This document shows, in pieces, positions 441 to 22,246 of a stretch of DNA of 64,000 bases. The notes under the pieces were generated by a model. The model searched no databases. It was not told the DNA's origin and worked only from the letters and a program-made list of their open reading frames with translations. Origin of the DNA: an uncultured Desulfobacteraceae bacterium (lineage in GTDB: Bacteria > Desulfobacterota > Desulfobacteria > Desulfobacterales > Desulfatirhabdiaceae); the NCBI GenBank assembly GCA_903953895.1, contig CAJBLH010000013.1, forward strand, positions 38,064 through 102,063, written 5' to 3'. A program made the position numbers and the translations under genes. Within the stretch, counting starts at the first letter, position 1. The number at the start of each line of letters is the position of its first letter.

Positions 441-1319
441 TTAACTGTCTGAAAATGCAAACAATCTGACCTTAACAATGATCTTTCTGTCGATCGAACC
501 GGCAAGGGCCTGTTTCACATCTTTTTTGATGGTCTCACCCTGGGAAACGGATATTTCGGCCGGAACATAGAGTTCTGTTTCAAATTCCATGTACTGGCCC
601 AGTTCCCTGGCAAAAATATTTTTGATACCACTGACGGTTTCTACTGTCTTTAGCGCTTTTTTCGCATTATCCAGAATTTCTTCATCAGGCGCCTTATCCA
701 AAAGATTCAATGAGGATTCTTTGATGTATTCGATACAAATCTTTAGAATAATCACGCCGACAACAGCCGCCGCCAGCGGGTCCATAAAGTGAAATCCCAT
801 CTTTGCGCCGATAATTCCGATCAATACCGCGATGGAGGCATAGACATCCGACCGGGATTCCCATGCTTTGGCCACCATCGATGGACTGTTGATCTGAGTG
901 CCGGCACAGACGCTTTGGCGAAACATGAGTTCGTTGATTAAAATAGCAATAATGGCGCCCCAGGCTGCCGACCAGCAAATAACAACCTTTCGTCCCTGAA
1001 CGATGCTCAGGATGCCCTCATAAATAATGAAGGAAGCAATCGCCATCAAGAACAAATAGATAATAATCGATACGATATATTCTATCTTTCCATACCCATA
1101 GGGATAATCGTCATCCTCTTGGCGGTCGGAAAGCCTCAATCCGATAATCATGACAAGCGTCGCCAAAAGATCGGCGCAGGAATGAACGGCATCGGCAATC
1201 AATCCTCTACTTTGGCCCACCACGCCCATATAGCCTTTGATCAGGATCATCAGGATATTGCCTACCACATTGACGACACCAACACTATCGGCGCATTTTC
1301 GGCATGCTCGGTATTTCAT
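441..1319 (-). CDS. mamB: Magnetosome cation diffusion facilitator, MamB-like
   Basis: CDF fold with N-terminal MKYRACRKCADSV (CxxC like MamB MKFENCRDC), LIADAVHSCADLLA and AWESRSDVYAS metal-site segments, YPYGYGKIEYI; neighbours mamQ, mamA, mamI. Confidence 0.8.
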   Translation of the reverse strand: MKYRACRKCADSVGVVNVVGNILMILIKGYMGVVGQSRGLIADAVHSCADLLATLVMIIGLRLSDRQEDDDYPYGYGKIEYIVSIIIYLFLMAIASFIIYEGILSIVQGRKVVICWSAAWGAIIAILINELMFRQSVCAGTQINSPSMVAKAWESRSDVYASIAVLIGIIGAKMGFHFMDPLAAAVVGVIILKICIEYIKESSLNLLDKAPDEEILDNAKKALKTVETVSGIKNIFARELGQYMEFETELYVPAEISVSQGETIKKDVKQALAGSIDRKIIVKVRLFAFSDS

Positions 1320-1447
1320 TCTTCACCCATTAACGACCGCTCGGCCTTGATCTCTGCTTCCATTTTCGAAACCGCTTGCAGTAAAAAAAAGGCAAACACC
1401 ACCACTGCAATGATTAGCACAACTCCGACAATTTTAAGAATAAACAT
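1316..1447 (-). CDS. Small single-TM protein (43 aa), unknown function, overlapping mamB by 4 nt
   Basis: Manual reading: MFILKIVGVVLIIAVVVFAFFLLQAVSKMEAEIKAERSLMGEE*; ATGA overlap with the mamB start suggests translational coupling; too short for the supplied ORF track. Confidence 0.5.
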   Translation of the reverse strand: MFILKIVGVVLIIAVVVFAFFLLQAVSKMEAEIKAERSLMGEE

Positions 1448-1482
1448 GGTTGATCGAACCTTTACGAATTTTCATTCTTATT

Positions 1483-1983
1483 CTAAATTACATAATGCCC
1501 CTTCAGCATCGCAAATATCATGACGAAAAAGAGGATTTGCTGCGTGTGCAAAAGGTAAAGGCCTTTTTTGACCTTGCCAGGGGGATATTTGATAAACATC
1601 AGAAATCCCCCGAAAGTAAGCCATCCCATGAGAACAAGGGCGACAATCAGCCAATTGTTTGACCACAAAGATACATAGCAGTGCGCACATGCAACCAGAA
1701 AGGAGGCCGTATTCAGCCAGACATGGTATATCAGCATCCTGTCGAAATAGGATTGAACATTTTTGAAATTGTATTTGATCCGAATTTGCTTGGCCGGGAA
1801 ATAGACATTTGCTGCAAGAAATAGCACCATGCACAGGTTGCCGGAGCCGGTAGCCAGGTTATAATCGGAAGTAACCGCATACACGGCTCCCAGCACCACA
1901 AGAATAGCGACGAATATCGCGCGCATTCTTACCGTTCCATGACCAAATAGAGATAAATTATAGGTGCTTGTGCTTATTTTCAC
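1483..1983 (-). CDS. Multi-TM membrane protein with paired histidines, possible heme-b (ferric-reductase/cyt b-like) protein
   Basis: 166 aa, several TM stretches; HVWLNTASFLVACAH and LLHTQQILFFVMIFAMLKGH place two His on each of two helices; sits inside the mam operon. Confidence 0.7.
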   Translation of the reverse strand: MKISTSTYNLSLFGHGTVRMRAIFVAILVVLGAVYAVTSDYNLATGSGNLCMVLFLAANVYFPAKQIRIKYNFKNVQSYFDRMLIYHVWLNTASFLVACAHCYVSLWSNNWLIVALVLMGWLTFGGFLMFIKYPPGKVKKGLYLLHTQQILFFVMIFAMLKGHYVI

Positions 1984-2039
1984 GTATTGCCGTTCTCCAA
2001 GGTTTCCCGAATTATTTACTATCCGCCTTCGTCCGGCTG

Positions 2040-2945
2040 CTAATAATCAATCGGTTTAAACTGCGCGGCTTCACTGGTGGCCATATAGTAAGGCATAGGC
2101 GTAAAATTGAACATTTTCGCAAAAACATTGATCGGAAATTTGGTGATGATGGTCGTGTAGATGTTTACCATATCGTTGTATTTCAGTCTGGCAGTAGACA
2201 AATCCTTTTCTACATCGGTTATAGACGTCATCAGGGTCAGAAAGGGAGCTGACGATTTCAGGTCTGGATGATCTTCCGCCAATGCGAGCAAGCCTGAAAG
2301 CGGCTTCAGTTCGCTGATGAGCGTGTGCTTTGTTCCCGCAGGATATTCAGCCGTAATCCCTGTATTTTTTTTATGTTCGACCGCAGCGGAGGGTTCGGTT
2401 TTTACCGATGTCTGTGGTTTTGAATCCGCTGACCTGTCCTGAACCGGCCTTAGAGCCGCAGGATTGTCTGCATCGGCTTTCGCCTGCTGATCGTCGATCG
2501 GTGACAATTGCTGCTGGGTATGATCTCTAGTCATATCCGCTCGCATTTTAACGATGTTGGTCAACACCGTACTTTCATGGACCGTATAATGGTACACCGA
2601 CTTCGAAAGATTGACGGAAGTATCATGGCGCCGCTCCAACAAAGCGTTTACATTGCCCAATGCCGCCTGCACGTCATACTGAGCCGCAAGCATGAGGTTG
2701 AAATAATATGCAGAACCCACTGCCAGTAGAATAGCTGATGTAATCAGCGTGATACGGACCCAATGATTTTTGGTGAAAGCCACAAAGGGTTTCCATACGG
2801 TAAGATAAAATCGGTGCCTTGAAACCAGCTCATGCCGATCCTGTTCATACCGGTCTGATTCATACTGATCCTGTTCATATTGATCCAGACCATATATTCT
2901 GCCGTAAGCACTTTGAATGATATTCGAAATATTTCTATTCATCAT
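2040..2945 (-). CDS. mamQ: MamQ, LemA-family magnetosome protein
   Basis: One TM then LemA-like helical domain: YYFNLMLAAQYDVQAALGNVNALLERRHDTSVNLSKSV... TARLKYNDMVNIYTTIITKFPINVFAKMFNF. Confidence 0.85.
   Translation of the reverse strand: MMNRNISNIIQSAYGRIYGLDQYEQDQYESDRYEQDRHELVSRHRFYLTVWKPFVAFTKNHWVRITLITSAILLAVGSAYYFNLMLAAQYDVQAALGNVNALLERRHDTSVNLSKSVYHYTVHESTVLTNIVKMRADMTRDHTQQQLSPIDDQQAKADADNPAALRPVQDRSADSKPQTSVKTEPSAAVEHKKNTGITAEYPAGTKHTLISELKPLSGLLALAEDHPDLKSSAPFLTLMTSITDVEKDLSTARLKYNDMVNIYTTIITKFPINVFAKMFNFTPMPYYMATSEAAQFKPIDY
2826..2885 (-). repeat. 15-bp coding tandem repeat x4 in the mamQ N-terminus (DQYEQ/DQYES/DRYEQ/DRHEL)
   Basis: Seen directly: (ga[tc]c[ag][ag][tc]atga[ag]..) pentapeptide units in frame. 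Confidence 0.8.
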
Positions 2946-2973
2946 GATAAATCTTTTTTCAATACCGCCATTT

Positions 2974-3330
2974 TCAGGTCAATTCCTTAATTCCATGGAT
3001 CAAAGAAGCCGCCCCTGCACCGATTAAGAGAATGGGAAGGAAACCGTTAAAAAAATCGAGAGTGGCGTAGTATTCATCTCCGCCGGCAAAAAGTCCATAT
3101 AATCCGATCAGGAGAAATATGCCGGCCAAAATTGAATTCACCACTCTGTACTCTTTTTTGGCAAAAATGGCTGCTGCCAATAGGGCGAGGCCGATTAAAA
3201 TAAAAATCGGTTGCACAACCCCTTTAATCAAAGTAACCACCAGCACGCTGTTCATATAAACAAAAAACAAACCTACGCTGAAAATGCTCAGTCCCGCGAT
3301 AATGTGTCCTTTTCTCATTGAGATTCTCAT
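2974..3330 (-). CDS. Tandem MamI-like four-TM membrane protein
   Basis: ORF 2974..3372; start probably MRISMRKGH at 3330 since the upstream gene ends at 3350. Two halves both resemble MamI (see findings). Confidence 0.7.
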   Translation of the reverse strand: MRISMRKGHIIAGLSIFSVGLFFVYMNSVLVVTLIKGVVQPIFILIGLALLAAAIFAKKEYRVVNSILAGIFLLIGLYGLFAGGDEYYATLDFFNGFLPILLIGAGAASLIHGIKELT

Positions 3331-3349
3331 CCTCGTATTTTTAAAAGCG

Positions 3350-4327
3350 TCATTGCGGCGCCCCATTATCAATCCATTCGATGATCAAATGGCTGTCCGG
3401 GCCGGCAAATCGATGCATGGGGCCGCCGATACTCACCAGCGACTTTAAAAGTCCGTTGTCCACGTAAACCTTGACATTGTCATAAGTCGTCAGATTCCGG
3501 AATGGGCCGGAATGGCATCGTAGACAGTCCTTCGCCAAAACTTGTCGGATGCCGTTATTATAAGTGATTGTACCCTGCTGCCCCTGCATTCCCATCGCGC
3601 CCTGCGGCTGGCCCGGCGGGCAGTTGGCACCCGATCGAAAAAAAACACGGATTGTGGGAGATTTTTCCGGCGCTCCGTTTTGGGCCCATGTCACGATCGT
3701 CTGAGCGTCATTTCCGGCAAACTGACTCATGGGGCCCTGTACCATGGTTGCCAGCAGCCCGGTATCCGCGTACATTTTCAAACTGTCATAGTCCATCAGA
3801 TTGCGACTTGGGCCCGAATGGCATTGTGCGCAATCATTGCTGATAATATTCTTGATCGTCGGTTCGTAGAAGACCGCCTTGGCTGCTGCAGGTATCATGT
3901 TTTGGTTTTTCAATGCCGCGGCCTGCATGGAAGCGGATTTTTCAGGCGCTCCGTTCTGAGCCCATGTCACGATCGTTTGTGCGTCATTTCCGGCAAACCG
4001 TCGCATGGGCCCCTGGACCATGCTTGCCAGCAATCCGGAATCCGCATATATTTTCAGACTGTCATAGTCCATCAGATTTCGATTCACCCCGGAATGACAT
4101 CGCGCACAATCGTTGCTGATTATATTCTTGATCGTCGGTTCATAATAGACAGCAGTGACGTTTACCTGTATCGCGCCCTGATTATTCGGCGGTATATTCG
4201 ACCCGGAAGGGATCTTCACATCTAAATTTCCCGCAGCATGCCCAAAAAAATGTTCCCCATCGTCGCAATAAAACAATAAAAAAAATGTTCCAAGGAGCAG
4301 AATCAGCGATTTATATACTGACTTCAT
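3350..4327 (-). CDS. Exported cytochrome c with three tandem CxxCH domains
   Basis: N-terminal hydrophobic signal; CARCHSG, CAQCHSG, CLRCHSG each followed by NLMDYDSLK..YAD.GLL..MVQGPM..FAGNDAQTIVTWAQNGAPE-type sequence. Confidence 0.85.
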   Translation of the reverse strand: MKSVYKSLILLLGTFFLLFYCDDGEHFFGHAAGNLDVKIPSGSNIPPNNQGAIQVNVTAVYYEPTIKNIISNDCARCHSGVNRNLMDYDSLKIYADSGLLASMVQGPMRRFAGNDAQTIVTWAQNGAPEKSASMQAAALKNQNMIPAAAKAVFYEPTIKNIISNDCAQCHSGPSRNLMDYDSLKMYADTGLLATMVQGPMSQFAGNDAQTIVTWAQNGAPEKSPTIRVFFRSGANCPPGQPQGAMGMQGQQGTITYNNGIRQVLAKDCLRCHSGPFRNLTTYDNVKVYVDNGLLKSLVSIGGPMHRFAGPDSHLIIEWIDNGAPQ

Positions 4328-4366
4328 GAATTATCCGGATTTATGCGATGTATGATTCGATATGGC

Positions 4367-5131
4367 CTAATAATTGTCTTCATCGAGTTCGCGCTCTAAT
4401 TCCATCACCTTGGTAAAATGCTTGGCAGCAGCTTTATGATCGTCCTTACGCACGTTTAAAAAACCCAGATGTTGATGATATTTGATTTCCGTGGGATTGA
4501 GTTCTATGGCTTTTTTAACGGCTTCAATGGCTTTGTCGATTTCTCCCAACCCATCATAGGCAATCCCGATCAGATAATATACCTTGGGGTTGTCCGGTGT
4601 CTTTTCAGAAACCTTCTCCAATCCTTCTATGGCAGCCTGGTAATCCTTCAGCTTTAGGTGAAGGGAACTTTTTCGATACAGGGCGCCTTTATGCGTCGGG
4701 CTTAAAATCAAGACCTTTTTAAAAGCTTTGATGGCGCTATTGGTCTCACCGGCAGCACTCAGCGCCATTCCCAACTGATATTGAGCATCCGCGTCGGATG
4801 GGTCCAGCCGGGTCCATTCCTTGAGATAGCTCAAGGCTTTTTCTTGCAACCCCTTTTTGGTGTAATGGGTGCTGATATTACGGTAAATCATTGCCTTGTC
4901 TTTTGGGGTCAACGCAAAAAGGGAGTTGTAGGCATCCAGCGTCTTGTTTAAAACACGACCGCAAAAAAGAAGAAAGGCATGCGTATAAAAAGTGGCTGAA
5001 GGCCCAATGCGCTCCGCTCCAGAATGACTGGCCTGGGCTTTGTCCTTTTTTGTCTTGCCTGGCTTTTTGGGAACATCATTTTCTTCTATTTCCTGAACTT
5101 CTTCGTCGTCCTTAAAATCATCATTCATCAT
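4367..5131 (-). CDS. mamA: MamA, TPR magnetosome-associated protein
   Basis: ATFYTHAFLLFCGRVLNKTLDAYNSLF matches the MamA N-terminal region (LYTHYGLSVAKKLG..MVDAFRSAF) followed by TPRs; ORF opens at 5167, likely start MMNDDF 5131/5128. Confidence 0.85.
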   Translation of the reverse strand: MMNDDFKDDEEVQEIEENDVPKKPGKTKKDKAQASHSGAERIGPSATFYTHAFLLFCGRVLNKTLDAYNSLFALTPKDKAMIYRNISTHYTKKGLQEKALSYLKEWTRLDPSDADAQYQLGMALSAAGETNSAIKAFKKVLILSPTHKGALYRKSSLHLKLKDYQAAIEGLEKVSEKTPDNPKVYYLIGIAYDGLGEIDKAIEAVKKAIELNPTEIKYHQHLGFLNVRKDDHKAAAKHFTKVMELERELDEDNY

Positions 5132-5312
5132 TTTCCGATGCCTCCTCCTTTGTTTTTGGCGGTACAAAACCTGCCAATGTAGCTAACAGGCCTATTAACA
5201 TCATACAAATCGGAAGTCCTCCCTTGACGATATCGGCCACATAATAATATTCGTCATAAATTCCCCAGATTCCCAAAGCAAGAAAAAACAAACCTAGAAT
5301 AATATGCAGCAT
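5121..5312 (-). CDS. mamI: MamI, small two-TM magnetosome protein
   Basis: MLHIILGLFFLALGIWGIYDEYYYVADIVKGGLPICMMLIGLLATLAGFV, matches MamI size and pattern; first gene of the mam operon. Confidence 0.8.
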   Translation of the reverse strand: MLHIILGLFFLALGIWGIYDEYYYVADIVKGGLPICMMLIGLLATLAGFVPPKTKEEASENDE

Positions 5313-7285: not shown

Positions 7286-7744
7286 TTAAACAATGGTGCT
7301 TTTACACTGGGTGAAACAAGTCATTGCGTTTTCGTTCAGTAGATTTGAAAGATAGACCCCATTCTGCCTGATGTGTTCTATAGCAGGAAAAAGCTCGGCG
7401 TCAAGATATTCTTTCAGAAGGTATCCATCCGCACCGGATGAAAGGGCTTCCTGAACATATTGTATCTCCCGGTGTGTACTGATGATCAACACCTTGATAG
7501 CAGGATAGAAATGCTTTATCGTGGCGGTCGCCTTGATTCCCCCGATATCCCGCAGGGTGATGTCGACAATGGCCATATCAGCGGCCGGTTCGATCAGACT
7601 CAATATTTCAATGAGCTGAGTACCGTCACGTGCTTCACCGACCACATCCAGATCGCTTCCGGACATGAGAATCCGATTTAAATCCTGGCGGAACATCGCA
7701 TGATCATCGGCCAGAACAACACGGTAATTACTTTTGATTGGCAC
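7286..7744 (-). CDS. Single-domain response regulator related to NarL/FixJ REC, no HTH
   Basis: VVLADDHAMFRQ...MAIVDITL...VLIISTHR...GADGYLLKE; ends before any LuxR HTH. Confidence 0.8.
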   Translation of the reverse strand: MPIKSNYRVVLADDHAMFRQDLNRILMSGSDLDVVGEARDGTQLIEILSLIEPAADMAIVDITLRDIGGIKATATIKHFYPAIKVLIISTHREIQYVQEALSSGADGYLLKEYLDAELFPAIEHIRQNGVYLSNLLNENAMTCFTQCKSTIV

Positions 7745-8084
7745 GTTTTTCTCCGCATTGAACCAATAAGAAACGCATACAATTTTCTATCTGATATTTA
7801 CCGGATTAAACGTACGGCGGCAATTCTCAGAAACAGCCATTTTGATGTGGTCAAAACAATGTATGAATACCCATGCACTGTCAGCCAAAATATCTGTCAT
7901 TTTGCAAAAAATTAAGATTATGGATGTCTTTGGTACAAGAAGTTTATTTCAGGCAGACGTTGAACGGAAAATTGTTCTTCAGGGGAAGCAATACTAAGAC
8001 GGTTAAGGAAGGGTAGAAAGCGTTTCATGGTAAGTAGGGGTGTACAGCGCTTCCGGGCTGAGAGACCCGAAAGTCGCATGTTGG

Positions 8085-8726
8085 TCAGATGTAGCCCTTC
8101 TGGATGGCGTATCTAACAAGATCGGCAGTCTTTTTGAGATTCAATTTCTGCATCATGTTGGCACGGTGACGTTCCACCGTGTGTACACTGACGAAGAGAG
8201 CATCGGCAATCTGTTTGTTTGCCCTTCCCTCCGCAATCAGTTTCAAGACTTCTTTTTCCCGGGTCGTTAGACTGGATTTGCCTAACCCTCTTCGGATCCG
8301 CTCCCAACTGATATCCGGCTTCTCGGAGAGGTGGGGAGACACATAAATACGCCCTTTTCGAATTTTCTCTATAGCAGCAAACAATTCAGAATCGGCATCC
8401 TGTTTCAGAAAATATCCATCCGCTCCCGCGGCAAGGGCCTGGTAAAGATATTCCTGATCCCTGTGCATCGTTACAATCAGTATTTTGACATCCGGATGGA
8501 TGTTTCGGATTTGCGGAATGGCTTCAATCCCTCTGAGATTCGGCATGGAGATATCGAGAATTACAAGCTCCGGGGCACTGCTTTTCGATTTCAGAAGATT
8601 GAGCAGCTCAAGTCCATCACTGGCTTCTCCCACGACCTCAAGATCAGCTATGACAACGATGAGACTTTTCAGCCCCTGCCGAAACAGGGCATGGTCATCG
8701 GCCAAAACGATCCGGTATTTTTCCAT
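8085..8726 (-). CDS. NarL/FixJ-family response regulator (REC + LuxR HTH)
   Basis: VLADDHALFRQGLK..; LTTREKEVLKLIAEGRANKQIADALFVSVHTVERHRANMMQKLNL. Confidence 0.92.
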   Translation of the reverse strand: MEKYRIVLADDHALFRQGLKSLIVVIADLEVVGEASDGLELLNLLKSKSSAPELVILDISMPNLRGIEAIPQIRNIHPDVKILIVTMHRDQEYLYQALAAGADGYFLKQDADSELFAAIEKIRKGRIYVSPHLSEKPDISWERIRRGLGKSSLTTREKEVLKLIAEGRANKQIADALFVSVHTVERHRANMMQKLNLKKTADLVRYAIQKGYI

Positions 8727-10024
8727 CAGACAATATTCCCTTTTGTAAGCGGAACGGAAAAGCCGATTCGGGTCCCCTTTCCTTTTTCGCTGCTCAGATG
8801 AAGCGATCCCCCCAGCATCTTGGCACGTTCTTTCATGGACGCCAGACCCAGACCCTTCTCTGATGATTTTATTGCGGATAACGTCTCCACATCAAATCCC
8901 CTGCCGTCGTCCTCAACGAAGAAGGAAATCGAATCTCCGCCTATCCTTACTCGAATCACGATATTATTGGCATAAGCGTGCTTGCCTATGTTTGTGAGTG
9001 CCTCCTGTACCGTTCTATATACCATAATCTGATGGTCTTTTTGAATTAAATTATCGATGGGCTCAATATCGGCGACCACTTTTACTTTGTAATGTCGAGC
9101 AAAGTTATCGATATACCATTTCAAAGCTGGGGTTAAACCGATATCCTCGAGTATGGATGGACTTAAATCACGGGAAAGGCGATGCACATTATTAATGATC
9201 TCATCGATGTACTGCCGCGTCTGTTTGCATTCCTCCCGGATCGTCGTCTGATCCGACTGAATGTTTTTTTCAATAAACCCAATTCTGAGCTTCAGCACCG
9301 CCAGCGCTCCGCCAAGTTCATCGTGCAGTTCTCTTGCAATTCGGCCCCGCTCTGTTTCTTGAGCAGTCAAAAGCTGATATGACAAGTTTCGAAGTTGCTT
9401 TTCGTATTCTCGCAGCTCTTTTTCGGCCTGTTTACGATTGGTGATGTCATAGAAAATTTGAAGTTTGGAAATGGTTCCGCTTAAATTGAAAAGGGGTGTA
9501 TCGATACGGTGATAAATCTTGCCGGTTTTTAAGGAATGCCATTCCCACTGCACGCTCTTACCAGAAAAAACATCCTGATTCTTACACCAGGAACAGATTT
9601 CCGTTCTGTCATGCAAATACGCATAGCACTTGCGACCGTTAACCTGACCGAATTCTTTTTCAACCACAGGGTTCGTGTACTCGATATCGTATTGCTGATT
9701 GACGATGTACACACCGTCCGGCATCGCATCCAGAATGGATCTGAACTTATTTCGCTCCACCTGTATCGCTTGCTCAACATGTTTGCGTTCTTCTATCTGT
9801 TGCGCAAGCTGATTGTTTGCCTCGGCCAGTGCCAGCACAGCATCCAGGTCGGCCTGGGCCGCACTCAGTTCCGCATCATGCACCTTTTGATGCCAACGCA
9901 GTTCATGAATTATCTGCCGCATTTCTTCAACGGACATCTCATCCAGGTCTTCCGATGACCAAAAGGCTTTTCTCCGAATCATCATCTCGACCCGCCGGCA
10001 GATTTCGTTATCTACCCTTGTCAT
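8726..10024 (-). CDS. PAS-containing HisKA_3 sensor histidine kinase
   Basis: PAS (ILDAMPDGVYIVNQQYDIEYTNP), ERGRIARELHDELGGALAVLKLRIGF, HATPase GRGFDVE..KGLGLASMKERAKMLGG; abuts the RR gene. Confidence 0.92.
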   Translation of the reverse strand: MTRVDNEICRRVEMMIRRKAFWSSEDLDEMSVEEMRQIIHELRWHQKVHDAELSAAQADLDAVLALAEANNQLAQQIEERKHVEQAIQVERNKFRSILDAMPDGVYIVNQQYDIEYTNPVVEKEFGQVNGRKCYAYLHDRTEICSWCKNQDVFSGKSVQWEWHSLKTGKIYHRIDTPLFNLSGTISKLQIFYDITNRKQAEKELREYEKQLRNLSYQLLTAQETERGRIARELHDELGGALAVLKLRIGFIEKNIQSDQTTIREECKQTRQYIDEIINNVHRLSRDLSPSILEDIGLTPALKWYIDNFARHYKVKVVADIEPIDNLIQKDHQIMVYRTVQEALTNIGKHAYANNIVIRVRIGGDSISFFVEDDGRGFDVETLSAIKSSEKGLGLASMKERAKMLGGSLHLSSEKGKGTRIGFSVPLTKGNIV

Positions 10025-10635: not shown

Positions 10636-11916
10636 TCAAGCTGTTACCTGGGACACCTGAGCATCCTCAACCGTATGCGTGGGGCTTATCAGCGGCTTCA
10701 GCCGGTTGAGGTGATACAGGTCGATAACTTCACGTATCGAATGTCCTTCTTTGGCCTGAAATATATCAACCAGTTGATCTTTTAACATATGAAACGATAT
10801 CTCACCGATCCGGGAGGTGAACAGCAGATCAATTGCATAGAGAACCGTAATTCTGGCAACCTTGACGCCGATGTGCTTGTTATCCCCGAGAAATTCATTC
10901 TTATAGAAATCTTCAATTTCCATTCGGTCATGGCCCAATTTCAGAACGGCAAAATACGGCGCTCTGGCAAAATGCCCGGCAACCCTGGCCTCCAGACCTT
11001 CTATATTCTGAACCGGGATCATGGCCAGAACGGTCTCCTCCTTAAGCGGCTCTACATGGATCATGACGGATTCAATGCGCTCGTAATTCGTTACAATGGC
11101 ATCCTCCAGTTTGTCGGCCAGTTCGTGAGCCTTATATAAAGTAAGCGTAGGCCGCGTTGCGATAACGCATTCAACCATCTTGAACGGACCTGACTGGCGA
11201 ATTTTCACCTTACTGACACCTTTGACACCATAGATCAAATTCGCTTTTTTTTCGATTTCGCCCTGCAGTTCCGGGTCCAGGTTGGCATCCAGCAGGATTA
11301 AAAGAGACGACCAGACGTTCTCAGTTCCAAGTTTACACAGCAGCAAAGAAATCAAAATGATGATGGCGCCTTCCACATATGGAATTCTGAAATAGGCCAA
11401 CAGAATTCCGAGCAACACCACCATCGATGTAAAAATATCCAGAAACGCTTCCCGTGAATTGGCCAAAAGCGATTGCGAGCCAATGGCTTTTCCGACTTTG
11501 GATTCCATTTCAGCGACCCCAAACGCCGACAAAGCGGAAAGCATGCTGGCCGCTACGGGGAAAAGAGGAAAAGAGGTCATCGGCTCAAGGGTGAAAAGCT
11601 TTTGATATCCTTCGCGAAACAGTGCAATACCGGCCATGATGATGAACCCGCCTATGATCAGGCAGGCCAGGGTTTCAGCCCTGTACAATCCGTAAGGGAA
11701 TTTTTTTGTTTTGCTGCTTCCGGCAATCCACAGACCAAATCCCGAGGCGGCGTGAGTCAAAAGATCGGCGCCGCTGTGAAAAGCATCCGCAATCAATACC
11801 TGCGAATTAAACAGATAACCGACAATCCCTTTGACTGCCGCCAATAAAAAAGAAATAAATGACGAAAGAAACGCAACCCGTTGGCCTTTTTTCAAATTTT
11901 CAGCGTTGCTTTTCAT
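10636..11916 (-). CDS. Cation diffusion facilitator fused to a C-terminal NifX/NifB-like domain
   Basis: CDF: LIADAFHSGADLLTHAASGFGLW, PYGLYRAETLACLI; C-term VARITVLYAIDLLFTSRIGEISFHMLKDQLVDIFQAKEG, NifX-like. Confidence 0.85.
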   Translation of the reverse strand: MKSNAENLKKGQRVAFLSSFISFLLAAVKGIVGYLFNSQVLIADAFHSGADLLTHAASGFGLWIAGSSKTKKFPYGLYRAETLACLIIGGFIIMAGIALFREGYQKLFTLEPMTSFPLFPVAASMLSALSAFGVAEMESKVGKAIGSQSLLANSREAFLDIFTSMVVLLGILLAYFRIPYVEGAIIILISLLLCKLGTENVWSSLLILLDANLDPELQGEIEKKANLIYGVKGVSKVKIRQSGPFKMVECVIATRPTLTLYKAHELADKLEDAIVTNYERIESVMIHVEPLKEETVLAMIPVQNIEGLEARVAGHFARAPYFAVLKLGHDRMEIEDFYKNEFLGDNKHIGVKVARITVLYAIDLLFTSRIGEISFHMLKDQLVDIFQAKEGHSIREVIDLYHLNRLKPLISPTHTVEDAQVSQVTA

Positions 11917-12248: not shown

Positions 12249-13091
12249 TTAACTCAGCAGCTTTATTGCCGTTGCCGACCTAAGCGCCACCTGTACCGCA
12301 GATAGAAGTTCACGATTATAAGCCCCAAGATTGACATAGGGGAAAATGCCGCTTTGCGGCCAGAAACTCCTGTGGCCGAAACAGTTGACCATCAGCAGTT
12401 CTTCCTTTGGTAACCGTTCAACTTCCAACCCGCTTGACGATAGTTTCGCCCTGAGATTCTCGATATCCCGAAAGCCTTTCCGGGGTCGTATCTTCATTCT
12501 GATCGGACTCATCGGGATAAGGATCGCCTCGCCATCAGCCGCCGCAAATGCCGCGTCACCCACTTTTTTCAGCTTCTGAAAATCGACATAATCGATAAGG
12601 GCAGCATTCCGGTCTCTGTTGATCACTCGCTGCTGAGCTTCCTCTACCGGACAGTCCAGATAAATGATCACGTCAAAGCTTTCGATAATCTGTGTTCTAA
12701 AAAGGCGTATGTTCTCGTAGATGCAGCCTGTTTTAAAGGGATACGGCTTTTTCATCTCCGATAGGTACAGCGTACGCCATTCAAGCCCCATCCGTTTGGC
12801 CAGACTTCTGCCCAACGTGCTTTTTCCGCTCCCAGGGGGGCCGTCGATACCGATGCACTGAGGAAACACCCGGTTTTGCTCCAGCACCAACATGATCTTG
12901 TCGGCATATTCTTCGACAGGTTGAACTTCTCCATAAGGTTTTTCCGCGCTGCCGGTAATCAATTTTCTGACCCGCCCCCGGATCGCGGATTTTATTGTCT
13001 CCCTGGACAGCAGGTTTATTGCCGCAGCCGTGATAAAAGCAAGGGCCATTTTCGGAAGGATTTCTTTCGTCAGGTCTTTCATGTCTCCCAT
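12249..13091 (-). CDS. Membrane-anchored P-loop kinase-like protein
   Basis: IGIDGPPGSGKSTLGRSLAKRMG (Walker A), FDVIIYLDCPVEEAQQRVINRDR; N-terminal hydrophobic segment. Confidence 0.75.
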   Translation of the reverse strand: MGDMKDLTKEILPKMALAFITAAAINLLSRETIKSAIRGRVRKLITGSAEKPYGEVQPVEEYADKIMLVLEQNRVFPQCIGIDGPPGSGKSTLGRSLAKRMGLEWRTLYLSEMKKPYPFKTGCIYENIRLFRTQIIESFDVIIYLDCPVEEAQQRVINRDRNAALIDYVDFQKLKKVGDAAFAAADGEAILIPMSPIRMKIRPRKGFRDIENLRAKLSSSGLEVERLPKEELLMVNCFGHRSFWPQSGIFPYVNLGAYNRELLSAVQVALRSATAIKLLS

Positions 13092-13661: not shown

Positions 13662-13967
13662 CTATTCATCCTTGTCCGCTTGTGCAGAAAGCGCATTCAA
13701 CCTTTCCGTAATGACATCCAACTGATTCTGAAGTTCTTCTTTCCGCTGAGCCAGGAAATCCTGCTCGTTTTGCGGCATTGACGAATATTCGCCGCCGTTC
13801 CATCCGGCCTGGCGGCATTGGCCCCTGCCGCCTCCGAAACGATTCCGGCGACCTGCACCTTGACCTGCTGCATATGCGTTCTGATCGCCCTTGCAATATC
13901 CCGATGTTCGGCCTGACATCTGACCATACCCCATGGGCCCTGTTCGATCTCCATTTGGCATTTTCAT
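13662..13967 (-). CDS. DUF5320-type protein
   Basis: MPNGDRTGPMGYGQMSGRTSGYCKGD... plus C-terminal coiled coil; adjacent to NifX. Confidence 0.8.
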   Translation of the reverse strand: MKMPNGDRTGPMGYGQMSGRTSGYCKGDQNAYAAGQGAGRRNRFGGGRGQCRQAGWNGGEYSSMPQNEQDFLAQRKEELQNQLDVITERLNALSAQADKDE

Positions 13968-14362
13968 TACCTCCTTCCCCTGTTGATGTTCTGTTTGCCC
14001 CCTTTAAATCGTCGATGTTGGCACCATTGCCCTGTGGCTTCCGCGTTCGTTATTGACGTCAGTCCGCCAGTCAAAAAGCAGGTCAAAATGTCCTGAACAT
14101 CTCCTGTCAGCCATGCGTATACCGGCAGATCATGATATTTCAACCACTGCATGGAATGACGATCAATACCGCCACAGATCAGTGTATCGACACCCAGGTT
14201 CAGCATCGTCCTGTTTTTTTCTATTGATGAGAGTTTGTTGATCGAAATCTTCCACTGCGCCATGATCTTACCGTCGGCGATATCAACCAGAAGCATCTCC
14301 TGAGCACAATCAAATCGCGGTGAAATGCGGGAGTTAAAAACTGGAATGGCAATTTTCATCAT
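13967..14362 (-). CDS. NifX/NifB-family (dinitrogenase Fe-Mo cofactor-type) protein
   Basis: MKIAIPVFNSRISPRFDCAQEMLLVDIADGKIM...LNLGVDTLICGGID.. Confidence 0.85.
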   Translation of the reverse strand: MMKIAIPVFNSRISPRFDCAQEMLLVDIADGKIMAQWKISINKLSSIEKNRTMLNLGVDTLICGGIDRHSMQWLKYHDLPVYAWLTGDVQDILTCFLTGGLTSITNAEATGQWCQHRRFKGGKQNINRGRR

Positions 14363-16147: not shown

Positions 16148-17449
16148 ATGACTGAAAAAGAACACATCATCGAAGACGAAATCCCAGAAAATTATGCCAC
16201 CGAAAAAGGAGCCTGGCCGCTTATGTTTGTAATGGGCTGTCTTTTGCTGTTGGGACTTGGCATACCCATCCTGCTGATTTATTACATAAAATCTCCACCC
16301 ATCGATCAACTAATGCCGATAATGGGGATATCCTATTCCAAGTTGGTGTATATTTTCCTGGTGAGTACGGCAATTATTACTTACGCATCGGTTTTATTTC
16401 TCAGAGCCAGGCCCATTATCATCTTTCCGGTTTTTGTGATATTATTATATTGCTGCTTTCCATTCATTGTTGGGCTTCGCAACAACCTGCCAATCAAGGA
16501 AGCCATCATCGATACGCCGCTTTTATCACATCTGCCTTTTTTCATAAAGCCGGCCTATCTTTTTTTCGAATTTTTTGTTCCAACTGGAATTCTCATTTGT
16601 TTATTTTTGCAAATTAAAAATATTTTGTCGAAAAAATCAACTTCCTTTGCTTTTTTAAGCCTGGCGTGTTTTCTGGGAACCGCCGCCGTCTTAGGATCTT
16701 CAATATTGACTCAGGCAGGCATTCCTAATCTTGTTACAATCGCCAAATGGTCGAATCCCAATCTTTCCATCAAACAAAACCTGCAACAAGCCTATCCCAT
16801 TCCAGATGAAAACCAGTTATTGTCTTCAACCGCAGAAATTGAGTCACCCGCCAATACGTTTCGAGTTCCGGGCATCGATAGGGAACCTGCCGGACAACCG
16901 GATACAGCAACACTTCGATCAGCCGTGGCTATTCCCAAAGAAGTTTCAACGATGCATGAAATCGATCAAAAATTTCAGCAGCTATCTGCAAAACTGGATC
17001 ACCTTATCGATATCATGCGTCAGAAGCCGTCATCACAGCAAAATGGTCGAGATCAGTTGGCGCCGGCCAATGCAGCCGACCTATCCAAACACAACGAACC
17101 GCCTGCCGCTTCCCTGTCGGCGGCCAAATTGGTTGAAAATAAAACCGATGAGGAAACTCTCGAACAAAAACTGCAGCAGGTATCCACGCGATTGAACGGA
17201 ATCGCCGATACAATTTCGCGTATCGAAACTTTGCTGCCCAAACAGACTTTAGATCAACAGAAATCGCCGGATTTCACTCCCCCGGCTCTTGCAGAACTCC
17301 AAACACAAAGTGTAACAGAGAACGCACCTCTTTCAACGACCAAGGATATCACTCAGGAACTATCGCTCATTTCAACAAAAGTCGATCAAATACTGGAAGC
17401 ACTTTCCCATGATAAGAAACCACACAGGTCGCTTCCCAAAAAACAATGA
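16148..17449 (+). CDS. Multi-TM protein with C-terminal coiled-coil repeats
   Basis: ORF 16109..17449, likely start MTEKEHIIED at 16148; about 6 TM then HEIDQKFQQLSAKLDHLIDIM / LEQKLQQVSTRLNGIADTISRIETLL / ITQELSLISTKVDQILEAL. Confidence 0.75.
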   Translation: MTEKEHIIEDEIPENYATEKGAWPLMFVMGCLLLLGLGIPILLIYYIKSPPIDQLMPIMGISYSKLVYIFLVSTAIITYASVLFLRARPIIIFPVFVILLYCCFPFIVGLRNNLPIKEAIIDTPLLSHLPFFIKPAYLFFEFFVPTGILICLFLQIKNILSKKSTSFAFLSLACFLGTAAVLGSSILTQAGIPNLVTIAKWSNPNLSIKQNLQQAYPIPDENQLLSSTAEIESPANTFRVPGIDREPAGQPDTATLRSAVAIPKEVSTMHEIDQKFQQLSAKLDHLIDIMRQKPSSQQNGRDQLAPANAADLSKHNEPPAASLSAAKLVENKTDEETLEQKLQQVSTRLNGIADTISRIETLLPKQTLDQQKSPDFTPPALAELQTQSVTENAPLSTTKDITQELSLISTKVDQILEALSHDKKPHRSLPKKQ

Positions 17450-17487
17450 ATCCGGTGTTACTTTTTCTGTAAAGGAGTTGCAAGACT

Positions 17488-19062
17488 ATGTCCGATAAGG
17501 AAGAATCTGAAGCAATCTCTGCCAGACTTCAGTTGTTACAGGACAACTTGGCCGAAGCCGTACGGCTGGCCGAAGTTTTTTACACAGGACAGGTAGAGGC
17601 TCAAAATGCGGCACAACAGGCACTAAAAGAAAAAACAGAACTCGAACAACGGATACAAACACTCCTGAATGAAAAATCAGTTGCTGCGGAAACAGCAGAT
17701 GATGTTGATATCGCCCCATTGTTAGCGGAATGTGAAGCGTTACAAAAACGAATTCATGAGCTTGAGAACAATTTGGCTGAAGCCCAAAGCTTGTTGGAAA
17801 CGAGGCTGAAGGAAATCAACGACTTTCAAGCCCGCATCGATCAGGCTCTGACTGAAAAGGCAGATGTTGAAAACCTGAGACGGGGCTTGCGGGATGAAAA
17901 TGTTCGAGTACAAAACGAGATGGTTAAGCTTGAAACCCGTGTGGAAACGGAATGCAATGCACTGAAAGACAAAATTCAGGCGCTTGAAACAAATTTGCGT
18001 ACTGCCGAAAGCCGGGCTGAAACAACCCAAAGAGAAAAGAGCGCTGCAGACGAAAAGATAGAGGCCATCACCGTAGAGAAAAAAACGCTTGAAAACAAAT
18101 ATGAAGATGCATTTACGGGTAAAATTGATGCGGAAAAAGAACTGCGTGCTGCGACCAAGATAAACGAGACCTTAACGATTCAACTGGAGGAGTGCAATAA
18201 ACGGTTGCACAGTCCGATTTCTAAAGTTGCGATGGCTGTGGTGGTGTTGCTTGCCCTGGCCTTGCTTGGATATTCCATCTTTCTTTTCCAGAGCTATCCG
18301 AACCGGTTGGTAAACGTCGATAGACAACTCGAAACATTGGTTACCCGCTTTGAAGACAAGACCCAACTTTTTGATGTGATCAGCCAGGGCCAGAAACAAA
18401 TGTCGGCAAAGCTCGACGAAATTTATCAGGAAGTGGAAATTATCGGCAAAAAGGCCGGCATTCAAATCGGAGCGCCAGGATCGGAAAAACATCCTTCGGA
18501 TACGGGCTTCTCAGGATTGACAGATCGGATTGACAGGCTGGAAAAAGCATTAAGCGACCTGCCTACAGGTCGGATTGCCTGGCAGGAAGAGGTGGATGCA
18601 TTACGCAAGAAAGTGGCCGATCTGGAAAAACAGCGCAAACAATTAGAGATAGAAAAGGCCAAATCATTTCTTCCGGAAGACCGACACTTTAAAATTCTTA
18701 CCGAAGTCTATTTTGATTCGGGTGAAACCAGACTGTCGGAAAAAGCTGCTGAAAATATAAAAACAATCGCTGAAAAAATCAAAAAAAAACCGGATATCCC
18801 CATTCGTATTGAAGGCCATTCCGATGACAAGCCCTTGCGTTGGACTATTTTTGATAGATTCAGCAACAATATGGAATTATCCATAGACCGTGGCGCAACT
18901 GTAGCCAGCATTTTAATCAAAGCCGGCGTAGATGCCAGTCAGATCAGTATCATCGGCGTCGGCCCGGCCCGGCCTGTCTCATCGAATGATAGTTCTGAAG
19001 GTAGGGCAAAAAACCGTAGAGTGGAAATCAAAATGATGGATAGCCCCAATGATTTGGGTTAA
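17488..19062 (+). CDS. Long coiled-coil, single-TM, OmpA-domain protein
   Basis: N-terminal heptad-rich region, TM VAMAVVVLLALALLGYSIFLF, C-term VYFDSGETRLSEKAAENIKTIAEKI...IEGHSDDKPL...AKNRRVEIKM (OmpA). Confidence 0.88.
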   Translation: MSDKEESEAISARLQLLQDNLAEAVRLAEVFYTGQVEAQNAAQQALKEKTELEQRIQTLLNEKSVAAETADDVDIAPLLAECEALQKRIHELENNLAEAQSLLETRLKEINDFQARIDQALTEKADVENLRRGLRDENVRVQNEMVKLETRVETECNALKDKIQALETNLRTAESRAETTQREKSAADEKIEAITVEKKTLENKYEDAFTGKIDAEKELRAATKINETLTIQLEECNKRLHSPISKVAMAVVVLLALALLGYSIFLFQSYPNRLVNVDRQLETLVTRFEDKTQLFDVISQGQKQMSAKLDEIYQEVEIIGKKAGIQIGAPGSEKHPSDTGFSGLTDRIDRLEKALSDLPTGRIAWQEEVDALRKKVADLEKQRKQLEIEKAKSFLPEDRHFKILTEVYFDSGETRLSEKAAENIKTIAEKIKKKPDIPIRIEGHSDDKPLRWTIFDRFSNNMELSIDRGATVASILIKAGVDASQISIIGVGPARPVSSNDSSEGRAKNRRVEIKMMDSPNDLG

Positions 19063-19094
19063 ATCAACTATTTAACTGATATGAATTACTCCAT

Positions 19095-20909
19095 ATGATA
19101 TTACGAATTCTTTTGATCGTATTCCTGAGTTTGATCTGCCAGGATATTCCCCTTGCTTTTCCGGCAGCACCACTGGAAGAGCTGCAGAAAAATGTAAATC
19201 AGGCAACCGCCAATGTGATGCAGTCCGTTGTCAGCGTCAAGGCTCAAAAACAAAGCCAGACCGGTATATTGTACGAGAGTATCGGCTCAGGCTTCGTTGT
19301 TGACGAAAGAGGTTATGTTTTAACCAATCTACATGTGGTTGAAAATGCACAAAATATTACGATATCCCAATGGCGGATCGGTCCGAATGTTATCTCCGCA
19401 ACACTGATGAATACCGATGAATCTTTGGATCTTGCCCTCCTAAAGATTGAAAGCAATGGTATATTCAAGCCTGCACCGCTTGACAATTCCGACCAATTGA
19501 AAATCGGCAACCTGGTGATATGCGTCGGAAGCCCTTTTGGTTTTAAACATAGCGTCACTTTCGGAATTATCAGTGATCTGCATCGAGAAATCGTGATACA
19601 AGGGTTGACATACCAGGATATGATCCAGACCGATGCTGTGATTAACGAAGGCAACAGCGGGGGGCCGATCGTCAATATATTCGGCAGGGTAATCGGTGTT
19701 GGAACTGCTATTTATGCGCCGGACGGCACCTATACCGGGATAGGCTTCGGCATTCCGATAAACCGGGCAAAACATTTTTTCTCGCAAACAACAGGGGCTG
19801 TTCTTGCTGCGGCTACGGCCCCGCTTCCCGCCGCCAATCCCAAAGAGCCGGTCGATATCAACACGAAAATTCCTGACGATCAAATACACAGGCAGTTTTC
19901 TGATTGCAGAGAATGCCATGTGATTTCGGCCAAAAGTGTTGTCACCGTTCAGGCAACCCTGCCCCATCTTCCACTGGAGGGATGCAGCGATTGTCACATT
20001 CTGACAAATGATAAGGTTGCAACAGCTCCGATTACCGTTGCGATGAACGTTCCAAAGCAGATTCCCAGTTTTTTGCAATTTGGATTTTTTGTCCGGTCAA
20101 CCATCCTGATCCTGTTCGGTTTGGTCGTAGGAACTGTTGGCACAATGGTAGGCGTCGGTGGAGGTTTTATTCATGTACCATTTTTAATGCTTGTTTGTGG
20201 TTTTTCCGTTCAGGATGCGATCGGCACATCGATAGGGATTATTTTTTTCAATACAACCGCTGGCTCATTCATGTATTATCATCAAAAATGTATCGATCTC
20301 GATCTGGCAAAAAAACTCTCTTTGATCGTTATCCCCGGAGCTATTTTAGGGCCGCTGATTGTACAGCAATATAACAATTCCTGGTATCTTGTCGTATTTA
20401 CCCTGTTGCTCTTCGTAATCTCCTGTTATTTGTTTTTTACCAACTCGCAGATAAATGTGCTTCCTGAGTTTCGATATAACCGGCGTGTGACGATAGAAGA
20501 TATCGATGGAAATAAAATATCTTATTCAACCAATATCGGGCTGAGCTATATCGGCACATTTATTATCGGCTTTTTTTCAAACCTGATCGGTATCGGTGGC
20601 GGTATTATCCATGTTCCTTTTCTGATTCTGTTTTTAAGAATTCCGGTTCATATCGCGCTTGGCACTTCTCATTTCATTCTGTGTGTATCGTCTTTTGCGG
20701 GAATGATCATGTTCGGGATTTTGGGTAATATCCATTTCGACTATATGATGCCGATTGCTGTGGGGGCCATATTGGGAGCAAAAATCGGCGTGGAGCTTTC
20801 AAAATTGACCAGTCCTGTCGTTATCAGAAAAATGCTGGCGTTGATTCTATTTTTTATCACTTTCAGAATCTTTATTAAACAGATAACTACCATTATGACG
20901 ATTCAATGA
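19095..20909 (+). CDS. MamEO-type fusion: trypsin-like protease + two CxxCH + TauE/SafE transporter
   Basis: TNLHVVENA (His), ESLDLALLKI (Asp), NEGNSGGPIVN (Ser); CRECH and CSDCH; C-term VGTVGTMVGVGGGFIHVPFLMLV...NLIGIGGGIIHVPFLILF TauE repeats. Confidence 0.88.
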   Translation: MILRILLIVFLSLICQDIPLAFPAAPLEELQKNVNQATANVMQSVVSVKAQKQSQTGILYESIGSGFVVDERGYVLTNLHVVENAQNITISQWRIGPNVISATLMNTDESLDLALLKIESNGIFKPAPLDNSDQLKIGNLVICVGSPFGFKHSVTFGIISDLHREIVIQGLTYQDMIQTDAVINEGNSGGPIVNIFGRVIGVGTAIYAPDGTYTGIGFGIPINRAKHFFSQTTGAVLAAATAPLPAANPKEPVDINTKIPDDQIHRQFSDCRECHVISAKSVVTVQATLPHLPLEGCSDCHILTNDKVATAPITVAMNVPKQIPSFLQFGFFVRSTILILFGLVVGTVGTMVGVGGGFIHVPFLMLVCGFSVQDAIGTSIGIIFFNTTAGSFMYYHQKCIDLDLAKKLSLIVIPGAILGPLIVQQYNNSWYLVVFTLLLFVISCYLFFTNSQINVLPEFRYNRRVTIEDIDGNKISYSTNIGLSYIGTFIIGFFSNLIGIGGGIIHVPFLILFLRIPVHIALGTSHFILCVSSFAGMIMFGILGNIHFDYMMPIAVGAILGAKIGVELSKLTSPVVIRKMLALILFFITFRIFIKQITTIMTIQ

Positions 20910-22246
20910 AAAGTGAACCGAGCAGTTTTTATTTTTTAAAAAAACCAGACCGGCCACCTGTTCAAATCAAAAAAACATCCAATACATCCGAGACCAAGCT
21001 GTCTGTGCCTTTGTCGCTGATTCAATACAACAATCCCTTCGATGAAATTGAATATCTTTCCACCTCGATACGAGCCAGAGGGCATATTCCGATCGTCTGG
21101 TCCAAAGCCAGGGGCTTGATGGTCAATCACCTATCCAGAGCCTATCCGCTATTTGACGGTTTCAATGTTGCTGGTTTAAACGACCCTTTGGAAGTGATCA
21201 AATTTATAATCAGTAAACCCCAGGAGTGTATCTCCTATATTTTTGAAGACTTTCATCACTACATCGGTGAAAAAGATACCATCAACCCGGTGGTTGGTGA
21301 AATCCGTTCTCTGATCAAAGAATTATACCGCAATTTAACAGGTCGAAATGAAAGCGTTTTTTTGTTTGTACCCCGTTCATATGAACTGCCGCCCGAGCTG
21401 CAACCTTTTTTCGCCCAATCAATCCCAAAATCTCTAAAAAAAACCAAAGGATACCTGGATCGCTATGGCATGCTTTTAACAGATGCCGAATTTCTTTCGC
21501 ACACAAAGCCCATGATCGGTGCGGATACTCTGATCGAGCGGCTGCTTCAGGTATTATCCCAGATGGAGACGAACAACCCCCTGCTGGTAGGCCCCCCCGG
21601 CGTGGGGAAAACCGCTGTGGTTGAAGGTCTTGCCAGAATGATCTACTCGGGAAAAGTACATCCCAGTCTTCATGGAAAGGCGTTGTATTCGCTTTCATTA
21701 AACAGTCTCATCGCCGGTACACGCTATCGCGGAGACCTTGAAGACCGGCTCGAATGCTTGATGGAGGAAGTACTTCATAAAAAAGATAAGGTCATCATTT
21801 TTATCGACGAGATTCATACTTTGATTGAAGCCGGCGCAACTGAAGGCGGCATGGGCCCCGCTGATATTTTAAAACCGGTGCTTGCCCGCGGAGAATTTCC
21901 CTGTATCGGCGCGACAACTCCAGCAGGAGCAGAATGCTTTGCCAAAGACCCAGCCTTGATGAGACGATTCAAAAAAATTATGGTTCATGAACCATCGGTC
22001 GATCAGTCACTTGCCATATTGAGGGGGATTATCACCTGTTTTGAAAATCACCACCGATTACAGGTCGATGATGATGCATTGGCTACAGCGGTGATGATGA
22101 GTAACAAGCATATCGTCGGTGAATATCTTCCGGGCAAGGCCATCTCGCTGGTTGACGGCGCTGCCGCCTTATGCAGCATGCAGGGCAAAAACAGGGTTAC
22201 AAGCAAAGACATATTGGTTGAAATGGAACGGTTGTTGATGGCTTAG
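20906..22246 (+). CDS. AAA+ ATPase: Ycf46-like N-terminal domain + ClpA/B D1-type AAA
   Basis: LLVGPPGVGKTAVVEGLARMI, VIIFIDEIHTLIEAGATEGGMGPADILKPVLARGE; no second AAA domain; ATGA overlap with the MamEO-type gene. Confidence 0.88.
   Translation: MKSEPSSFYFLKKPDRPPVQIKKTSNTSETKLSVPLSLIQYNNPFDEIEYLSTSIRARGHIPIVWSKARGLMVNHLSRAYPLFDGFNVAGLNDPLEVIKFIISKPQECISYIFEDFHHYIGEKDTINPVVGEIRSLIKELYRNLTGRNESVFLFVPRSYELPPELQPFFAQSIPKSLKKTKGYLDRYGMLLTDAEFLSHTKPMIGADTLIERLLQVLSQMETNNPLLVGPPGVGKTAVVEGLARMIYSGKVHPSLHGKALYSLSLNSLIAGTRYRGDLEDRLECLMEEVLHKKDKVIIFIDEIHTLIEAGATEGGMGPADILKPVLARGEFPCIGATTPAGAECFAKDPALMRRFKKIMVHEPSVDQSLAILRGIITCFENHHRLQVDDDALATAVMMSNKHIVGEYLPGKAISLVDGAAALCSMQGKNRVTSKDILVEMERLLMA

Follow-up and report, generated by a model that had tools for sequence, protein, structure and literature searches.

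A probable satellite magnetosome operon with a chimeric MamEO gene and a Mad27-like ATPase gene in a Desulfobacterota genome

The MamEO protein of Desulfobacterota, as found in RS-1 and BW-1, has the domain order Trypsin-MCR1-MCR2-TauE. In AMB-1, the TauE domain of MamO is required for proteolysis by MamE, and magnetosome proteases have been described as pairs of active and inactive members (PMC4794232); RS-1 requires a stand-alone tauE (DMR_41280) for magnetite (PMC4287615). Mad27 is an ATPase-domain protein, proposed to be the energy source for chain assembly (PMC9840458), and has once been located just outside the cluster (PMC7951924). Here we analyze four genes, named A to D in operon order, in a 64,000-nucleotide stretch of the genome of a Desulfobacterota bacterium (G000:C13:38064-102063; this whole stretch is called the window). 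We consider it probable, on the evidence of sequence comparison, that they constitute a satellite operon displaced from the magnetosome gene cluster (MGC) and encoding an envelope-anchored unit, in which lumenal proteolysis, haem redox and TauE-type transport would be coupled to a cytoplasmic AAA motor. Names of cluster genes were assigned by position and homology, not by experiment, and all statements on distribution refer to the genomes searched, namely 57 relatives, 389 genomes of the order, the wider phylum and a scan of named loci.

The four genes have the same direction and are tightly packed according to the open reading frame (ORF) check: 38 bp lie between A and B and 32 bp between B and C, and C and D overlap by 4 bp (ATGA), in agreement with the extent, plus strand, close packing and ATGA overlap given in a preliminary description of this DNA (Table 1). 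The start of A is an ATG located 13 codons within a longer TTG ORF. Terminator-like sites within the operon were no more frequent than in shuffled sequence, and the four genes are presumably co-transcribed. Pfam, NCBIfam and transmembrane (TM) prediction reproduced the domains that had been proposed: TM segments with coil-like repeats in A, a coiled coil with OmpA in B, protease, haem and TauE parts in C and a ClpA/ClpB-type AAA domain in D. The proposed link to magnetosomes was also borne out, because a full MGC of deltaproteobacterial type is present just upstream on the same contig; it runs on the minus strand through the region preceding the window and the window's first 5 kb, and encodes MamA, a haem protein, CDFs, MamE-type and PDZ proteins, NapH, FeoB, MamK, coiled coils, a HEAT protein, Mad28 and MinD. 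The operon lies beyond the end of this cluster, 11 kb from mamA. Close packing alone could be explained by chance, but chance cannot explain the recurrence of the gene pairs in other magnetotactic genomes.

Gene C is, judging from its similarities and trees, a chimera in which a MamEO head has been joined to a different TauE of the stand-alone type. Pfam assigns Trypsin_2 and, with 162 bits at the C-terminus, PF01925 (TauE); the NCBIfam scores for MamE (183 bits against a cut-off of 800) and MamO (128 bits) are both far under their cut-offs. In the tree the head is placed inside the MamEO clade with support of 100/99, apart from MamE-Nter and from housekeeping DegP, and the alignment of six MamEO heads revealed that the protease triad (H80/D112/S188) and both CxxCH motifs are kept in all of them. 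The triad of alphaproteobacterial MamO, in contrast, is degenerate. The CSDCH motif fits the published MCR pattern strictly, and the CRECH motif has IH for PH. MamEO heads were restricted to genomes with magnetosome genes. While gene C thus shares with the Desulfobacterota MamEO the domain order, the head clade and the positions of the triad and CxxCH motifs, it differs in being located outside mamAB and in having a tail from another TauE lineage. With this tail as query, stand-alone TauEs of its group scored 118-192 bits and MamEO TauEs 79-96 bits, whereas the BW-1 tail scored 350-400 bits with other MamEO TauEs. The MamEO TauEs formed one clade in two trees (99/97 and 100/99) with the window tail excluded, and the possibility that the tail is an ordinary MamEO TauE was rejected both by the trees and by the approximately unbiased (AU) test (p 0.0067; 0.006).

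The closest relative of the tail is a stand-alone TauE in the MGC of genome G469, and the tail grouped with the MGC stand-alone TauEs of YD0425bin50, G393, AM-lipid bin-222 and G469, from which it differs by its fusion to the MamEO head. TauEs of two congeners, G001 and G002, where searches for Mad28, A and full-length D found none, are also close to this lineage, and a clade composed of all MGC stand-alone TauEs and the C tail minus these two was rejected (AU p 0.02); their presence in the same clade indicates that the donor lineage was not strictly magnetosomal. In both congeners TauE is directly beside DegP (L142:784-3212 in G001 and L141:230-2655 in G002), forming a two-gene counterpart of the MamEO fusion.

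The relocation is evident from two empty slots in the main cluster. The usual MamEO site is between the PDZ gene and mamE-Nter, as in BW-1, ER2bin7, G091 and metagenome-assembled genomes (MAGs) of Desulfamplus. In this genome and in Umea1_bin-2529, the nearest relative, about 45-50 bp separate the two genes and the slot is empty; MamEO adjoins the D side in both genomes and not mamAB, gene C being about 23 kb from the empty slot in this genome and outside the mamAB operon. The mad27-type slot, between a mad26-type coiled coil and Mad28, is likewise empty in both. In the MamE-Nter of the host, Gln and Asp replace the catalytic His and Ser, and such an inactive protein beside a presumably active C head agrees with the published pairing (PMC4794232).

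The position of its homologues in the named loci makes Mad27, or a paralogue of it, the most likely identity of gene D. With Mad27 it shares the ATPase domain, homologues between mad26 and mad28, and restriction to genomes with magnetosome genes; it differs in that the window copy has moved out of the cluster, away from the position held by its homologues, and has been joined to C. In BW-1, D is found between the mad26-type coiled coil and Mad28, and in nHLHbin7 and ER2bin7 it follows that coiled coil. The window D may be a paralogue, because two MAGs have two D copies of different types; in the tree, those located in or close to the classical slot group as a clade (99/99). Pfam assigns AAA and AAA_lid_9 to D, and its AlphaFold model matches the first nucleotide-binding domain (NBD1) of ClpC/ClpB with Z of about 30. 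The second half is 42-45% identical to NBD1 of ClpB/ClpC and retains Walker A, Walker B and the pore loop, but D is set apart from ClpB, ClpC and ClpA by having a single NBD1 (residues 179-446) with no second NBD, and by a degenerate AAA fold where Clp proteins have the Clp N-domain. When modelled alone, this N-domain matched the AAA domain of p97/Rix7 (Z 11.8 over 123 residues), and its sequence gave nothing significant in searches of Pfam and PDB. The N-domain may also resemble Ycf46, for which a literature search found nothing.

Full-length D, with both N-domain and AAA domain, occurs in 4 of the 57 relatives, all of which have an MGC. The N-domain profile detected nine clear genomes among the 389 of the order, and all nine are within the 17 that have a strong Mad28 (p ~5e-14, ignoring relatedness); an extra weak match in G013 (E 1e-5) was to a CDC48/FtsH-type AAA protein, whose N-domain relation was tested. 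The 13 D loci in the scan of named loci all belonged to BW-1 or to MAGs in which magnetosome genes or the same neighbours are present. Three more genomes with D were found in the phylum search: in G393 and G469 the contig with D also carries MGC genes, and the D contig of G464 is short and has no clear MGC gene.

Gene A, for which neither a Pfam match nor a published family name was found, appears to encode an additional membrane protein associated with magnetosomes, in many cases near the head of the mamAB operon; the coiled coil in its C-terminal coil-like repeats was judged by eye. It is directly upstream of mamA in G091, upstream of mamA also in G067, G196 and G275, and adjoins MinD-Mad28 in G362. 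Thirteen genomes of the order have gene A and all of them carry MGC genes. Ten have a strong Mad28, and the other three (G067, G196 and G275) were considered as counter-examples and dismissed, because mamA-type clusters adjoin A. The co-occurrence with magnetosomes expected in the preliminary description therefore holds for A, full-length D and the MamEO head, the short contig of G464 leaving that genome undecided.

Gene B has an OmpA domain with TM or periplasmic anchoring in common with anchors of the MotB, TssL and Pal types (PF00691 behind a TM segment, 70 bits against a cut-off of 27.2), and is distinguished from them by a long N-terminal coiled coil predicted to be cytoplasmic; its scores are far under all named equivalog cut-offs. 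This layout suggests a direct link of magnetosome scaffolds to peptidoglycan, and a search of the literature for magnetosomes together with OmpA and peptidoglycan found nothing relevant. A counterpart alike in layout is present in the magnetotactic MAG YD0425bin50 (L071:5210-6811), where it directly precedes and overlaps D; identity is 23% over 474 residues, i.e., most of the length, but scores of this kind are inflated by coiled coils. In AM-lipid bin-222, a longer OmpA coiled-coil protein is encoded 1.3 kb past D. A family conserved across the relatives was rejected for gene B, because broad matches were limited to the OmpA domain. In Desulfamplus MAGs (L067:8083-9699 and equivalents), the place of B between A and D is occupied by a zinc-ribbon-like coiled-coil protein (CLICR...CPCCG).

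TauE and D occur together or as cluster-mates in five genomes: this one, Umea1_bin-2529, G393, AM-lipid bin-222 and G469. In G393, which is outside the order, mad23-26-type genes, STAS, Mad28, a stand-alone TauE and a D with 60% identity to the window D are on one strand, and in AM-lipid bin-222 TauE and D are divergent neighbours. YD0425bin50 has the pairs A-TauE (stand-alone) and B-D, and Desulfamplus MAGs have the order A-coiled coil-D. Fusion and synteny evidence for joint work of the products comes from the exchange of the TauE tail and from the recurrence of the pairs TauE-D, A-TauE and B-D. Through the chimeric C, magnetosome genes that normally lie apart are brought together, and the recurrent links supply specific targets for knock-out and interaction experiments.

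Several observations weigh against a functional unit of all four. Only one genome showed all four genes in the order A-B-C-D. Umea1_bin-2529 lacks B, has A at another place and carries a methyltransferase gene and a restriction-like gene between C and D, and we therefore rejected one conserved block. D is absent from G091, where A is present and MamEO is normal, A is absent from BW-1 and ER2bin7, which do have D, and A is without MGC neighbours on its contigs in G287, G331 and G339. The calls of topology and coiled coils are simple predictions. Neighbours of other MamEO genes, proposed earlier as a refuting test, are mamAB genes and not A, B or D. Nor can the operon be called an undescribed subsystem as a whole, since MamEO is a described gene and D has the most likely identity given above. 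As for the insert in Umea1_bin-2529 (L030:4891-6880), it consists of a DNA methyltransferase and a gene resembling its restriction enzyme.

If A to D do work together, they would form an inner-membrane or magnetosome-membrane unit with the C head predicted on the lumenal or periplasmic side, D in the cytoplasm and B spanning to the wall. The head would cleave biomineralisation proteins and perform haem redox like MamE, and the tail may give transport or activation as does the MamO TauE in AMB-1. The cytoplasmic D would be an ATP-driven remodeller of Mad coiled coils and actins, or of the cytoplasmic part of B, and A and B would tie the unit to the cell wall, by which magnetosome maturation might be coupled to position. 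An envelope-spanning assembly, as proposed in the preliminary description, is plausible; the evidence supports its parts, and how they work together is inferred. We also entertain, with some doubt, that A, B, TauE and D are an undescribed envelope-spanning magnetosome subcomplex of Desulfobacterota, comprising an ATP motor, a transporter and a wall anchor, and that the MamEO head was grafted onto its TauE in this lineage; if true, a core magnetosome protein had its transporter half exchanged.

Other D genes are surrounded by mad genes for coiled coils and by the genes of the actins MamK and Mad28, the A-coiled coil-D order of Desulfamplus MAGs is without TauE, and MamEO is normally within mamAB; these facts would suit A, B and D being a chain-positioning apparatus only, i.e., a cytoskeletal motor with a wall anchor, with the chimeric MamEO merely co-transcribed. 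We regard this as unlikely in view of the ATGA overlap of C and D and of the TauEs adjoining D in G393 and AM-lipid bin-222 and A in YD0425bin50. The proximity of TauE and D in five genomes, one of them from another class, and the essentiality of tauE alone in RS-1 (PMC4287615) could alternatively mean that D regulates or assembles a magnetosome-membrane TauE as a transport pair, with the protease-haem head, A and B as accessories. Such a pair appears improbable, since D also has neighbourhoods of coiled coils and actins that include no TauE. In addition, Clp-type motors are not known to act as partners of TauE. HtrA proteases, Clp-type ATPases and OmpA domains occur widely, and TauE is beside DegP in two congeners without other magnetosome signs, but a general envelope proteolysis or stress system near the MGC by chance is very improbable: the distribution of A, full-length D and the MamEO head in the order follows that of magnetosome genes, the C head belongs to the MamEO clade and contains magnetochrome motifs, and D is without the second NBD, where the ClpP-binding loop of the Clp family resides.

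Table 1. Coordinates of the operon, its domains and neighbouring features in the window
Feature	Position	Strand	Basis or remark
Gene A, 433 aa; five predicted TM segments (residues 26-187), coil-rich C-terminus	16148..17449	+	ORF and TM prediction
Gene B, 524 aa; coiled coil 1-248, TM 249-267, coil, OmpA 408-510	17488..19062	+	Pfam and TM prediction
OmpA domain of B (PF00691), putative peptidoglycan anchor	18709..19017	+	Pfam
Gene C, 604 aa, chimeric MamEO; signal/TM, HtrA head, two magnetochrome-type haem motifs, TauE tail	19095..20909	+	Pfam, trees
Magnetochrome-type motifs of C; CRECH at residue 271, CSDCH at residue 297	19857..20000	+	motif inspection
TauE tail of C (PF01925), outside the MamEO TauE lineage	20106..20867	+	Pfam, trees
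Gene D, 446 aa, tandem AAA protein, Mad27-like	20906..22246	+	ORF, profile searches
N-domain of D; degenerate AAA fold without Walker A, YI[FL]EDFHH motif	21002..21445	+	fold search
C-domain of D; ClpB/ClpC NBD1-type AAA with Walker A, Walker B and pore-loop YRG	21452..22204	+	Pfam, NCBIfam, fold search
End of the main MGC; MamB/M-type CDF, haem protein, MamA TPR	441..5167	-	homology; continues upstream as L010, L009
Response regulators and histidine kinase	7286..10024	-	homologues of 8085-10024 flank satellite D loci in Desulfamplus MAGs

Between the MGC and the operon, the window encodes a CDF transporter with a C-terminal Nitro_FeMo-Co domain (10636-11916), a second and weaker Nitro_FeMo-Co match (13967-14362), and a deoxynucleoside-kinase-like protein (12249-13091), whose homologues are beside D in ER2bin7 (49%) and beside Mad28 in nHGRbin17 (29%). 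In the upstream part of the MGC, a MamE-Cter-type haem/PDZ protein (L010:17883-19400) has a tandem repeat of about 35-40 residues (APMTQNQVETLAEQLGVPKTQQAVTQALQ). Two Mad28-like genes are side by side in G287 (L139:2267-5723), the second encoding 722 aa with a long extension, and an actin-like protein with 39-50% identity to Mad28 (matches <345 bits) was found in about 20 genomes of the order.

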